From assembly GCA_938091335.1 (NCBI GenBank), contig CALLJG010000006.1, positions 1 through 64,000 on the forward strand: a DNA stretch of 64,000 nt. Direction: 5' to 3'. The DNA is from an uncultured Thermodesulfobacterium sp. Lineage in GTDB: Bacteria; Desulfobacterota; Thermodesulfobacteria; Thermodesulfobacteriales; Thermodesulfobacteriaceae. Made by a program: the position numbers and the translations under genes. Shown here in pieces: positions 50,213 to 55,702 of the stretch (positions within the stretch are counted from its first letter, which is position 1; every line of letters begins with the position of its first letter). The notes below the pieces were generated by a model that worked only from the letters and a program-made list of their open reading frames with translations, did no database searches and was not told the DNA's origin.

Positions 50213-51109
50213 ATGGAAGGCCTAAAAAAGAATCCTTTTGAAATATTTGGTCTTACTCCTAAAATAGTAAAGGAACTTGATGAAGAAAATTTATTTAGAC
50301 TAATTAAGGCTATCTACAAAGTTTTTCAAATGATACATCATCCTGATAAAGGAGGAGAATCTAAAAAAGCATTAGAAATAAATCTCGCCTTTGAATGCCT
50401 CAATCTGGAAAAAAATTTTGAAAGTTTTAAAAATTTTAAAAAAAAATATATAGAAAGACTTTCAAGAAAAACTATGCAAAAAAAAATAGAAGAGTTAAAA
50501 ACACAAAATAGAAAATTTCAATTTCATAATGAACTTTTAAAAGAAAGATTTTGGCAGTTTGTAGAAAATCAATATGAGTTCTTACAAAAATTAATTGATC
50601 AGGAAAAAGGACTTAAACTTAAAATTTTTGATATAGTTTCATATATGAATCTTTCTCATATCAGAAAAATTAGAAAACAATTATTTTTTAAAGAAATTAT
50701 ATTATTTAAAAAATTTATCTTAAAAAGAAAAAGTTATGAAGAATTTTTTAGAAATATTATAAACTATAAATATATAGGTTCGATTAAGAGGGAGTATATA
50801 GAGCCTTGGGTTTTATTAGAAAGAGATTTAAAAGAGGGTTCTTATAATTTTAAGAATTTTCTTTCTAAAGAAACTTTTATTAAAGAATGTTTGGTATATT
50901 TAGAACCTGATATTAGGCCAAATTCATATATTTTTTTCTATTCTTCAGAAAATTTTGAAAAAGTAATTTTGGAAGGTGTAGTAATAAAGCAAGAAATATT
51001 AGATAAAGAGGGAATTTTAGATATATTTAAAAATAGGGTGATTCAACAAGAAAATATGATACAAAAAGAGAATTTTAAATGGACAAATAATGAAATAGTA
51101 GAGTATTAA
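50213..51109 (+). CDS. Orphan J-domain-like protein
   Basis: 298 residues. The N-terminus (about 7-60) resembles a J domain, with the HPD tripeptide at 43-45 in IHHPDKGG, so it may stimulate a DnaK. The rest is Lys/Glu/Phe-rich and helical, with no G/F region or zinc fingers, and I recognise nothing else. The TAA stop shares TTAA with the convergent radical SAM gene. No dnaK gene is near. Confidence 0.7.
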   Translation: MEGLKKNPFEIFGLTPKIVKELDEENLFRLIKAIYKVFQMIHHPDKGGESKKALEINLAFECLNLEKNFESFKNFKKKYIERLSRKTMQKKIEELKTQNRKFQFHNELLKERFWQFVENQYEFLQKLIDQEKGLKLKIFDIVSYMNLSHIRKIRKQLFFKEIILFKKFILKRKSYEEFFRNIINYKYIGSIKREYIEPWVLLERDLKEGSYNFKNFLSKETFIKECLVYLEPDIRPNSYIFFYSSENFEKVILEGVVIKQEILDKEGILDIFKNRVIQQENMIQKENFKWTNNEIVEY

Positions 51110-52197
51110 GTTAAAAGATGTAAATTTCCTATGGACACATTTTTTAATCCATTTTTTTTAGCAATTTCGTAACATTTGTAAGCTAATTCTTTTGAGGTGA
51201 GAGGTAAGTCTCTCATATAAAAGTGGGGATAGAAAGCAAGAAGTCTATAGGGTATATTTGGGTTTAAGTTTGCTATAAATTTAGAGATACCATCTATTTC
51301 TTTTTCATCTATATATCCTGAAACAAGAAGAGTACTTGCAATTAGTAAAGGAATTTGAGGTCTTTCTTTTATATATTCTGCAACAAAAGCAAAATTTTCT
51401 AAGATTTTTTTATTGGAAATTCCTGTTAAAGCAATATGTAAGTTTTCATTCCAGGTTTTAAGGTCAAATTTAATACATCCTCCTGAAATTAAGGAAAGTT
51501 CTATTACCTTTTTAAGCATATTTTTATTCATGAGCCCGTTAGTTTCCCAACAAATTCTAAGTATTCTATTTTTTTTATTTTTTAATGCTTCTGAAGAAGC
51601 TTTTATAGCAAAGGGAAGTTGAGGTGAGGGATCTCCACCAAAATAGCATATACATGATATTTTTGGGTTAAGTGTATTTAGAAAATTTTCTATAGATTCA
51701 GTTTTATGTTCTAAAGTGAGTTTTCTAAAATGCCAATTTTGACAAAATAAACAGTTAAGGCTACAGGCATGAAAAAAAACTGCTAAATTGTAGTATCCGT
51801 ATTCTGGGCCAGGTTTATAAGCATATTCAGGATAACCACACCCTGTTCCAGCAGGGCAAACCCAGTCAGCTACACAATTAGTTGGTAAAGGATCTAAATA
51901 CCAAGAAACTTTAGCTGATTTATAACTAGGTCCTTTAAGTACACCCTTTTCATTTTTTCTTAATCCACAAAAACCCATTTCATTTTCAGGAATCTTACAT
52001 TCATTAGCACAAATTTTACATTTTATTCCTTCTTTTCCTGAGCAAGGAAAAGAAGGAAGTTTAAAAGGTTCTCTACTTTCTTTATGAGCTTTTTCTATAT
52101 AAGGTCTGGTTTCTTTTTCAAAATTTAAAATACAATCTTTACAAACCCCTAAAATTTTAGCTACAATCTTTTCTTTTCTACAAACTTTACAATTCAT
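51106..52197 (-). CDS. Radical SAM protein with cysteine-rich N-terminal region
   Basis: 363 residues. The 4Fe-4S motif is CSLNCLFC (Cys145, 149, 152), followed by QNWHFRK as in the PflA-like/AmmeMemoRadiSam group. Before it lie twelve more cysteines: CKVC (3-6), 19, 22, 52, 60, 63, 67, 77, and an insertion with Cys108, 114 and 120 (CVADWVCPAGTGC). The N-terminal part resembles zinc or extra-cluster sites. YFGGDPSPQLP and FDLKTWNE are typical core motifs. The reaction is unknown. It overlaps the methyltransferase gene by ATGA-type coupling. Confidence 0.8.
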   Translation of the reverse strand: MNCKVCRKEKIVAKILGVCKDCILNFEKETRPYIEKAHKESREPFKLPSFPCSGKEGIKCKICANECKIPENEMGFCGLRKNEKGVLKGPSYKSAKVSWYLDPLPTNCVADWVCPAGTGCGYPEYAYKPGPEYGYYNLAVFFHACSLNCLFCQNWHFRKLTLEHKTESIENFLNTLNPKISCICYFGGDPSPQLPFAIKASSEALKNKKNRILRICWETNGLMNKNMLKKVIELSLISGGCIKFDLKTWNENLHIALTGISNKKILENFAFVAEYIKERPQIPLLIASTLLVSGYIDEKEIDGISKFIANLNPNIPYRLLAFYPHFYMRDLPLTSKELAYKCYEIAKKNGLKNVSIGNLHLLT

Positions 52198-53369
52198 TTT
52201 ATATAAATACCTATTCCTTTTAAATAAAAAGTCTCCTCTACAAAAGGATTAATCGGATGGTCTGGTGCTTGAGATCCATGAAAAATAAATCTTCCTTCTT
52301 TGTTAAGATTTTTTAAATTATTCTCAATAAACTTTTTTAAGGTTTTATTTTTCAAAAAATGAGAACAAGAAAATGCAAAAAGTAACCCCTCTTTTTTTAA
52401 AGCCTTCATTCCTAAAAAATAAAGACTTTGATATTTTTTTATCCCATCTTTAAGATCTTTTTTAGATTTAATAAAAGCTGGTGGATCAATAATAATTACA
52501 TCAGCTTTTGGAGGATTTTTTAAGATTTGAAAAGCATCCCCCAAAATAGGTATTATTTTATCTTTCCACCCATTTAATTTAGCTATTTCCTTAGCTAAGT
52601 CAAGGGCAAATTCAGATCTATCTAAAAGGTAAGCCTTTTTAGCTCCTCCTTTTAATGCATAAAAAGCAAATCCACCAGTATAAGAAAATACATCTAAGAT
52701 AACATCAGACTTTATTAAAGCTTTTATAAATCTTCTATTTTCTCTTTGATCTAAGAAAAAACCAGTTTTTTGACCTTTTATAACAGGAATAAGAAATTTT
52801 ATCTCATCCATTTCTACTAAAATTATTTCTTCTGTTTTACCATAAATGATTTCTACATAAAGTTCAAGTTCTTCTTCTTTTCGAATAATTGAATCATTCT
52901 TTAATATGATAGCTGAAGGAGCAAATAGAATTTTTAGAGCTTTGATAATAAAATTCTTAAGTTTTTCAATTCCTAAGGTTTGGATTTGAAGTACTATTAC
53001 TTTATTATAAATATCCACAATAAGACCTGGTAAAAAGTCACCTTCTGAAAAGATCAGTCTAAAACACTTTTCTTTTGAATATAATTTTTTTCTTAATTTC
53101 AGAGCATTAGAAAATTTATTTAAGAAAAATTTTTCATCTATTAATGTTTTTTCTTTACTTAATATTTTTAAGGAGTAATAGCTTTTAGGATTAAAATATC
53201 CACATCCTAGGAAAAAACCATCCTCAGAAAATATATTCACTAAAGAACCTGGAGATATATTTTCTTTAACTTTTTCAAATTGATAAATTTCTTGAGGTCT
53301 AAACCACAAATGATTAGAAAAATATCTTTTTAATCCTATTTGATTTAATTTAACTTTAGGATATTCCAT
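52194..53369 (-). CDS. Class I rRNA large-subunit methyltransferase (RlmI-like)
   Basis: 391 residues. An N-terminal PUA domain (about 1-75, with GSLVNIFSEDGFFLGCGYFN) is followed by a Rossmann SAM domain: LDVFSYTGGFAFYALKGGA, ILGDAFQIL and the catalytic IDPPAF. RlmI methylates C1962 of 23S rRNA in E. coli. QKTGFFLDQRENR is a strong family mark. It overlaps the NapH-like gene by 14 bases. The exact base is inferred. Confidence 0.88.
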   Translation of the reverse strand: MEYPKVKLNQIGLKRYFSNHLWFRPQEIYQFEKVKENISPGSLVNIFSEDGFFLGCGYFNPKSYYSLKILSKEKTLIDEKFFLNKFSNALKLRKKLYSKEKCFRLIFSEGDFLPGLIVDIYNKVIVLQIQTLGIEKLKNFIIKALKILFAPSAIILKNDSIIRKEEELELYVEIIYGKTEEIILVEMDEIKFLIPVIKGQKTGFFLDQRENRRFIKALIKSDVILDVFSYTGGFAFYALKGGAKKAYLLDRSEFALDLAKEIAKLNGWKDKIIPILGDAFQILKNPPKADVIIIDPPAFIKSKKDLKDGIKKYQSLYFLGMKALKKEGLLFAFSCSHFLKNKTLKKFIENNLKNLNKEGRFIFHGSQAPDHPINPFVEETFYLKGIGIYIK

Positions 53370-54222
53370 AAGAGGATTTATTAAGTTTTATAGTAATGGC
53401 TTTAGTAGGGCAAATTTTCAAACAATTAAGACATCTTATACATTCTATTGAATTTAGTTTTTTAGGGATAGATAGTTTAAAAGGACATACCTTCTCACAT
53501 ATTTTACAAGAATTGCAATTATTTTGATCTAAATAAAGTTTAAAAATGCCTATATTGTTAAACAATCCATAAATAAACCCCAATGGGCAAATACTTTTAC
53601 AAAAGAATCTAAATTGAATTATACATGAAAATATAACAAGAATCAGAATTAAACTTTTTAAAAAAAAGGTAAAACCTATAAAAGAAAGTAAGTGAGGTTG
53701 AAGAAAGAGATTTAAATAACCTGCTTCTAATGTTCCAGCAGGGCAAAAGTATTTACAAAACCAAAGTATTCCATAACCTAATTCATCAGAAATTGAAACA
53801 GGCAAAATTATTACAAAAAATAAAAGAAGAAAAATTTTAAAAATTTTTTCTGCTTGATAGGGAAGAAAAAATGTAATTTTAAAAAATGGTATTTTATAAA
53901 GAAGTTCTTGAAAAAAACCAAAAGGGCATAACCATCCACAGATGAATCTTCCTAATAAAAGACCAAAAATTAAAAAAAAGCTAATAATATATGAAAAGGT
54001 TCCTATTAAAATGTGCCAAGGTAAATTTCTTATTGAAATAAGGAAACTTTGCAGTATTCCTAAAGGACAAGCAAAAAGACTTGCTGGACAAGAATGACAG
54101 TTTAATCCCGGGGCACAAAAGTTTTTTAACATACCTGAATAAATATTATGGGTGATTAAAAATCCAGGATAACCGTTATGAATGAGGGTTGAGATTAACT
54201 GAATCCATTTTCTTTTTATCAT
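53356..54222 (-). CDS. NapH-like membrane 4Fe-4S ferredoxin
   Basis: 288 residues with about five hydrophobic helices. Family boxes are GRFICGWLCPFGFFQEL, CKYFCPAGTLEAG and CKSICPLGFIYG, followed by two ferredoxin clusters (CNSCKICEKVCP and CIRCLNCLKICP). Such proteins pass electrons from quinol or across the membrane. Extra cysteines lie at the N-terminus (CAPGLNCHSCPASLFACP). It starts with ATG overlapping the stop of the small peptide gene (ATGA). No nitrate reductase genes are present, so NapH as such is unlikely. Confidence 0.85.
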   Translation of the reverse strand: MIKRKWIQLISTLIHNGYPGFLITHNIYSGMLKNFCAPGLNCHSCPASLFACPLGILQSFLISIRNLPWHILIGTFSYIISFFLIFGLLLGRFICGWLCPFGFFQELLYKIPFFKITFFLPYQAEKIFKIFLLLFFVIILPVSISDELGYGILWFCKYFCPAGTLEAGYLNLFLQPHLLSFIGFTFFLKSLILILVIFSCIIQFRFFCKSICPLGFIYGLFNNIGIFKLYLDQNNCNSCKICEKVCPFKLSIPKKLNSIECIRCLNCLKICPTKAITIKLNKSSYGIS

Positions 54223-54350
54223 TCCAATCCCATACAGGAAAGACAGAGAACTACAGATCTTGAATAAATAAAATCATAGCCCTTTAAAAAAACTCCTAAA
54301 AAAAGTCCTAAAAAAGTTAAAATTAATAGAGAAAAAATAATTTTTTTCAT
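54219..54350 (-). CDS. 43-residue membrane peptide ending in a CxxC motif
   Basis: A short gene with start ATG at 54350 (overlapping the glmM TAA as TAATG) and stop TGA that overlaps the NapH-like ATG. It reads MKKIIFSLLILTFLGLFLG, then VFLKGYDFIYSRSVVLCLSC and MGLE. One transmembrane helix (about 4-22) would place the CLSC motif near the membrane surface, probably outside. The double overlap supports real translation. I do not know the family; the Cys pair and neighbours suggest a redox or metal role. Confidence 0.65.
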   Translation of the reverse strand: MKKIIFSLLILTFLGLFLGVFLKGYDFIYSRSVVLCLSCMGLE

Positions 54351-55702
54351 TAATTTAGCTTGATTTTTATATATTCAGCTAATTCATCTGCTATTTCTTC
54401 AATTAATTTAGGATCTTCTCCTTCTACCATAACTCTGTATTTTGGTTCTGTTCCTGATGGTCTTACGATTATTCTGCCATTTTTACCTAATTTTGATTCA
54501 GCTAGCTTAATTTTTTCTAATAAACCGTTAATACTTTCTAAGGATTTTTTCTTCTTTATTTTAACATTTTTTATTACTTGGGGAAATTTTTCAAAAAGAT
54601 TTAGAAATTCAGAAAGAAATTTCCCCTTTTCTTTCATTAAAGATATTAATCTAATTCCTGTTAATAATCCATCTCCAGTAGTAGTTTTATCCAAAAATAT
54701 TATGTGTCCTGAGGTCTCACCTCCTAAAATTGCATTTACTTCTTTCATTTTCTGAACTACATATCTATCTCCAACTGATGTTCTAAGGAAAGATATTCCA
54801 TTTTTGATCAAAAAGTTTTCTAATCCTAAATTATTCATTATAGTTCCAACTACTGTATTATTAGAAAGAAGGTTTTTATTTTTAAAATCAATAGCAAAAA
54901 TAGCTAAAAGGTCGTCCCCATCTACAAGGTTTCCTTTTTCATCTACCAACACAATTCTGTCTCCATCTCCATCAAGAGCAATTCCCAAATGAGCTTCTAG
55001 GTCTAAAACTAATTTTTTTATATTTTCTGGATAGAGAGCTCCACAATTTTCGTTTATGTTAATTCCATCAGGTGAACATCCTATAGCAATAACATTAGCT
55101 CCTAATTCTTCAAGAACAAGAGGTCCTATTTGATAAGCAGCTCCATTAGCACAATCTATTACTATTTTTATACCCTCGAAATTGATATGAGATGGTACAA
55201 CTGATTTTAAGTGTATTGCGTATCTTCCTATCGCATCTTTAATTCTATAAGCCCTTCCTAATTGATCTTTGAAATAACGGATGTTTGAAAAATTTTCATC
55301 GAAAACAAGTTTTTCTATTTTTTCTTCTAATTCATCTGAAAGCTTATATCCGTCTTTTCCAAAGATTTTAATTCCATTATCATAATAAGGATTATGGGAG
55401 GCAGAAATCATTATTCCTGCATCTGCTCTCATATCTTTAGTTAAAAAGGCAATAGCAGGAGTTGGTAAAGGTCCTATTAACCAAGTATAAACTCCCATTG
55501 AGCAAAGCCCAGAAACTAAAGCAGATTCAAATATATAACCTGATAATCTTGTATCCTTTCCTATAATAACTTTGCTTACAGATAAATCATTTTTAAATAA
55601 ATATCCAATAGCTCTTCCTACTTGTAAGGCTATTTCAGGAAGCATAGGGAAAATATTAGCCTCACCTCTTATTCCATCAGTTCCGAATAACTTTTTTCCC
55701 AT
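54350..55702 (-). CDS. glmM: Phosphoglucosamine mutase
   Basis: 450 residues. The phosphoserine loop is IMISASHNPYYDNGIK (catalytic Ser102), the metal loop DGDGDR, sugar loop GGETSGHI and phosphate loop RPSGTEPKYRVM. It turns glucosamine-6-phosphate into the 1-phosphate for UDP-GlcNAc. It follows cdaA and cdaR; in Firmicutes the same trio exists and GlmM restrains CdaA. The small peptide gene follows with a TAATG overlap. Confidence 0.96.
   Translation of the reverse strand: MGKKLFGTDGIRGEANIFPMLPEIALQVGRAIGYLFKNDLSVSKVIIGKDTRLSGYIFESALVSGLCSMGVYTWLIGPLPTPAIAFLTKDMRADAGIMISASHNPYYDNGIKIFGKDGYKLSDELEEKIEKLVFDENFSNIRYFKDQLGRAYRIKDAIGRYAIHLKSVVPSHINFEGIKIVIDCANGAAYQIGPLVLEELGANVIAIGCSPDGININENCGALYPENIKKLVLDLEAHLGIALDGDGDRIVLVDEKGNLVDGDDLLAIFAIDFKNKNLLSNNTVVGTIMNNLGLENFLIKNGISFLRTSVGDRYVVQKMKEVNAILGGETSGHIIFLDKTTTGDGLLTGIRLISLMKEKGKFLSEFLNLFEKFPQVIKNVKIKKKKSLESINGLLEKIKLAESKLGKNGRIIVRPSGTEPKYRVMVEGEDPKLIEEIADELAEYIKIKLN

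Follow-up and report, generated by a model that had tools for sequence, protein, structure and literature searches.

The question at this locus, part of a 64,000-nucleotide stretch from an uncultured Thermodesulfobacterium sp. (the window), is whether a frame of 43 codons between glmM and a NapH-like gene encodes a protein and, if it does, what that protein may do beside such a partner. A sequence-only reading had taken it for an overlooked small membrane peptide. The comparisons below uphold this view and add that the family has already been named by NCBI, that glmM is merely a local neighbour, and that many homologues carry an in-frame TGA, probably read as selenocysteine (Sec), at the first cysteine of the C-terminal motif.

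Gene Arrangement in the Window

The following features, all on the minus strand, are involved:

54350–55702, minus: glmM (phosphoglucosamine mutase), the upstream neighbour, with TAATG common to it and the peptide gene
54219–54350, minus: single-span membrane peptide homologous to CD1871A, 43 aa, Cys form, with CXXC at residues 36–39
54228–54245, minus: conserved motif C-L-S-C-M-G, codons TGT CTT TCC TGT ATG GGA
54219–54222, minus: ATGA, the peptide stop and the NapH-like start, a 4-base overlap
53356–54222, minus: NapH-like polytopic Fe-S protein, 288 aa, with 18 conserved cysteines

The translation of the frame is MKKIIFSLLILTFLGLFLGVFLKGYDFIYSRSVVLCLSCMGLE, in which one hydrophobic helix is followed by CLSC-MGLE at the C-terminus. 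The peptide ATG and the glmM TAA have a single base in common (the second A of TAATG), and the peptide gene, ending in TGA, runs four bases into the NapH-like gene, which starts with ATG; both the double overlap and the helix with a C-terminal CxxC are as first described. Because the overlap with glmM is only one base long and a Shine-Dalgarno sequence is not clearly recognizable before the peptide gene, its translation probably depends on coupling. Promoter-like and terminator-like sites, for which the peptide stretch was scanned, did not rise above chance. Further downstream (51106–53369, minus strand), the NapH-like gene overlaps an rRNA-methyltransferase-like gene by a few bases, and the latter overlaps a gene for a Cys-rich protein in the same way, so that this entire run of genes has the look of a single compact operon.

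Conservation of the Peptide

Matches to the peptide were found in nearly all genomes of the window's genus, family, and order, and the few genomes of the same family or order with no convincing match are incomplete (64–76% complete). The best matches have 58–65% identity and end at the same motif, whose C-x-S-C-M-G-L columns are invariant among 27 aligned relatives; one relative, at locus L009, has Ala in place of Gly (CLSCMALEE). The codons of the motif vary synonymously in relatives at Cys, Ser, Gly, and Leu (TGT/TGC, TCC/TCT, GGA/GGC/GGT/GGG), and dN/dS of the peptide is below 1 in every genus-level pair listed.

Judged by this conservation, the 43-residue frame is a true protein gene. The expectation that it lies beyond chance is borne out by its near-universal presence in its own family and order, the invariant motif, and the synonymous codon changes. 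Its short length would suit a chance frame in the gap between two genes, but this explanation is already refuted by the conservation and homology of the peptide, and its probability is practically nil. Disruption of the frame at a neutral rate, which the sequence-only reading had named as counter-evidence, was not seen, save for decayed copies beside a few NapH paralogues.

Relation to the CD1871A Family

The window peptide matched no Pfam or NCBIfam model and no PDB entry by sequence. This includes NF040920, the NCBIfam model for CXXC motif-containing proteins of the CD1871A family, whose curated cut-off of 32 bits it does not reach. The same loci in relatives are matched by NF040920, one over the cut-off (G030, 39.0 bits) and many below it; the model is over cut-off in 36 of 297 genomes and, of 27 close relatives, it matches 14 with E-values of at most 0.1. 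Profile–profile comparison (hhalign) of the window's group with the over-cut-off members covered 42 columns with a probability of 97.7 and an E-value of 1.6e-12.

Like CD1871A proteins, the peptide falls in the range of about 40–50 residues with one span and a C-terminal CXXC. In both, the gene directly precedes that of a 4Fe-4S membrane protein, an observed regularity that lies outside the NF040920 model. In Peptoclostridium acidaminophilum, the gene of the annotated CD1871A protein WP_168023683.1 overlaps that of the 4Fe-4S binding protein WP_025437090.1 by 8 bases, in the same order. The differences concern the end of the motif (CIGIG in CD1871A, CMGLE in the window) and the residues before it (K-A and SR-(A/S), respectively). 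On the evidence of these alignments, which show homology, the window peptide is a divergent sister group of CD1871A, formally under the NCBI cut-off. The spread outside Thermodesulfobacteriota rests on Peptoclostridium, one WOR-3 genome, and the CD1871A family name.

Linkage with the NapH-like Gene

A search with the NapH-like protein found it in 98 of 297 genomes of the phylum. We examined 131 NapH-like loci, 130 of which were placed on a tree; L065 was left out, its NapH match being a second copy. The peptide gene lies upstream at 119 of the 130 loci (95 in the Cys form and 24 in the Sec form, with L009, L092, and L136 assigned by eye), which is not an unbiased rate, since the loci were gathered by peptide searches as well as by NapH searches. 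A less biased test is given by the NapH-like loci whose peptide the CD1871A model missed, and most of these do carry the peptide. Its presence upstream at the 119 loci shows a near-constant linkage, and the two genes form a cassette. The small frame before NapH-like genes that was to be looked for in relatives is there, and conservation and linkage together support the claim of an overlooked, genuine coding gene for a membrane peptide coupled to the NapH-like gene.

At the other 11 loci, NapH-like paralogues stand without the peptide; a NapH-like protein thus does not always need it, which counts against the joint role proposed below. Of these loci, at least two, L145 (G061) and L147 (G224), lie beside apparently decayed peptide remnants without a membrane span, which read KLVWLSRIGVG (RLVWLSRIGVG in the frame of L145) and KLVULSCIGVG.

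As the upstream neighbour, glmM is conserved only in the family of the window and in a single genome belonging to the next family, and the other recurrent neighbours are housekeeping genes that differ between lineages (read as rdgB, rph, and others). Since other genes take its place outside the window's family, glmM is a bystander.

Two loci, L133 and L153, have variant peptides with CYSCIGV and an odd region before the motif (DYYDHEEV and NYEHEEV), and their NapH-like genes fall on a separate branch. In another genome, which also has a Sec form, a second peptide in the Cys form (MLCLSCIGMG; L094, G227:C70:11571-11678) was found with no NapH-like gene nearby.

Selenocysteine Forms in Relatives

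Most of the NapH-like loci that seemed to be without the peptide proved to have it with TGA at the first Cys (LULSCIGVG and close variants). TGA takes the place of the first Cys codon of CXXC at 24 loci in nine bacterial families (f9, f12, f25, f30, f47, f80, f82, f88, and f94; the decayed f24 copy, L147, is uncounted). The internal stop is always TGA and never TAA or TAG. The residues after it are kept (LSCIGVG) while their codons change, synonymously at Ser, Cys, and Ile, with Ser encoded by both TCN and AGY.

A bSECIS-like hairpin with a GGGU loop (once GGUU), starting about 18 nt after the TGA, is present in 19 of the 22 measured copies; of the other three, two from f9 form another hairpin at a greater distance, and one has a weak hairpin. 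The median hairpin energy is −7.4 kcal/mol in TGA copies and −0.7 kcal/mol in Cys copies; since the copies are related by descent, the p-value of this difference is overstated. In the 19 hairpin copies, 91% of cells pair, against no more than 59% at slid positions. Covariation within the hairpin falls short of significance: two pairs show two-sided change, which shuffles reach in 114 of 500 cases. The median distance from peptide to NapH-like gene is 60 nt in the Sec form versus 11 nt in the Cys form, giving the hairpin space.

Every one of the 24 genomes with the Sec form has tRNA-Sec, and SelB was over cut-off in the five tested. Because tRNA-Sec is common in these genomes (55 of 60 overall and 31 of the 36 without the Sec form), its association with the Sec form is consistent but statistically weak; where tRNA-Sec was searched for and not found, in five genomes, the peptide is always of the Cys form. 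The window copy is itself a Cys form, though its genome has tRNA-Sec and SelB.

On the NapH tree, a quick tree with several long branches, at least four switches between Sec and Cys can be counted, with Sec nested in Cys in f9 and Cys nested in Sec in f30. One of these f30 Cys forms belongs to G303, which has neither tRNA-Sec nor a SelB over cut-off. L095 (G104), of the Cys form, branches within Sec forms; its genome has kept tRNA-Sec and SelB, the hairpin sequence is partly preserved, and the locus looks like a Sec-to-Cys reversion.

The relatives thus combine a TGA aligned with Cys and followed by coding sequence, a bSECIS-like hairpin, and Sec machinery in the genome, by which selenoproteins are recognized, and we strongly infer from these sequence features that the TGA is decoded as Sec. 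If the TGA were instead an ordinary stop, these copies would be truncated or pseudogenes, and the window peptide would still be real. Such a reading could draw on the sequence basis of Sec decoding, on the non-significant covariation, and on the abundance of tRNA-Sec in the phylum; it is nevertheless very improbable given the conservation of the LSCIGVG codons after TGA with synonymous change in nine families, the restriction of internal stops to TGA, and a hairpin far stronger in TGA than in Cys copies.

The NapH-like Partner

With the NapH and MauN ferredoxin-type quinol dehydrogenases (TIGR02163), the partner shares CX3CP motifs and two C-terminal [4Fe-4S] motifs; unlike them, it carries an additional C-x5-C-x2-C-x6-C near the N-terminus and a third CX3CP, and no other nap genes were seen among the recurrent neighbours. 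Its score against TIGR02163 is 60.7 bits, below the cut-off of 213.05. Eight of its 18 conserved cysteines belong to the two C-terminal ferredoxin motifs, six to the three CX3CP motifs, and four lie near the N-terminus. Matches in the PDB by sequence cover the ferredoxin domains only, and an AlphaFold model made with 19 homologues is poor (pLDDT 52.7, pTM 0.46) and so lends a complex with the peptide no structural support. As far as PMC5928378 relates the work of Kern and Simon, NapH is proposed to transfer electrons from menaquinol by quinol oxidation, and it needs its CX3CP motifs to keep its integrity and to contact its partners.

Proposed Function

The density of Lys and Arg is 0.45 before the span and 0.06 after it; this charge distribution points to a cytoplasmic N-terminus and an extracytoplasmic CXXC. 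Selenocysteine occurs in the active sites of oxidoreductases (PMC1794560), and its apparent decoding at the first position of CXXC in relatives argues strongly for redox chemistry there.

Taken together, we think it fairly likely that the peptide is a single-span, N-in/C-out redox peptide that swaps electrons with its 18-Cys NapH-like partner. The peptide, of about 45 residues, would insert in the membrane with its N-terminus inside and its CXXC outside, and would be the small partner of the NapH-like Fe-S membrane protein encoded by the adjacent gene, the two probably forming a physical complex. The CXXC would be a redox-active dithiol, with selenocysteine as its first residue in homologues, and CXXC or UXXC would serve as the outer redox couple of a two-part membrane relay. 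Electrons could be exchanged, in either direction, between this couple and the NapH-like protein on its quinol/quinone or cytoplasmic ferredoxin side, linking the membrane electron pool to a thiol, a disulfide, or an acceptor of that kind on the outer side of the cytoplasmic membrane.

It is possible, but unlikely, that CXXC or UXXC is not a thiol/disulfide couple but a ligand of a metal or cluster, filling out a metal site of the NapH-like protein. In VhuU, a small selenopeptide, a UxxC is contributed to the nickel site of a hydrogenase, and this precedent of a tiny Sec subunit, the Sec ligation of metal in some enzymes, and the 18 conserved Cys of the partner would all fit a ligand; on the other side, the partner's own Cys suffice for its two ferredoxin clusters, and genes of hydrogenases or other metalloenzymes do not recur nearby. 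Still less probable is a role without redox chemistry, in which the peptide would help the NapH-like protein to assemble or to stay stable, or would chiefly serve to couple translation. Overlapping genes and near-constant adjacency are what such a role would lead one to expect, but the motif is kept where the genes are 220–530 bp apart (L044, L122, L124, L125, and L140), and Sec at the first Cys would make no sense in a leader.

With the electron-exchanging redox peptide as the preferred reading, a family so far named but uncharacterised can be given a near-constant partner, a residue that is probably catalytic (the first Cys, apparently Sec in members from nine bacterial families), and a function open to test. 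More broadly, we lean toward the view that CD1871A-like peptides are uncatalogued, widespread membrane selenoproteins of about 45 residues with repeated switching between Sec and Cys, and that together with the NapH-like Fe-S protein they would constitute a hitherto undescribed transmembrane relay in anaerobes, built of two components and carrying electrons by thiol/selenol chemistry. Gene callers take the TGA for a stop and so are likely to miss the genes of the Sec form. Should Sec be confirmed, these peptides would be among the smallest membrane selenoproteins and would offer a direct handle on the role of NapH-like proteins outside nitrate respiration.

Comparison with Other Small Selenoproteins

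In the parts of its Table 1 covered here, a review of prokaryotic selenoproteins (May 2026, PMC13188914) names neither a CD1871A family nor one linked to NapH, and neither CD1871 nor NapH appears as a term in the paper; VhuU is among the selenoproteins listed. VhuU and other very small UxxC selenoproteins resemble the Sec-form peptide in being tiny and in having UxxC; unlike VhuU, the CD1871A-like peptide is membrane-anchored and has a NapH-like partner, and its recurrent gene neighbours include no [NiFe] hydrogenase.

TsoA (LULAxC motif selenoprotein, NF045695) was considered as a name for the Sec form and rejected, as the peptides do not match its model. The LUL motif has a similar look, but the TsoA model has 144 positions and, where TsoA is present (G121 and G046), it lies at a different locus. 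In G121, the NapH-like gene of the Sec-form cassette L125 (G121:C31:22400-24400) is followed, some 400 bp further downstream, by a tRNA-Sec gene (G121:C31:24494-24584).
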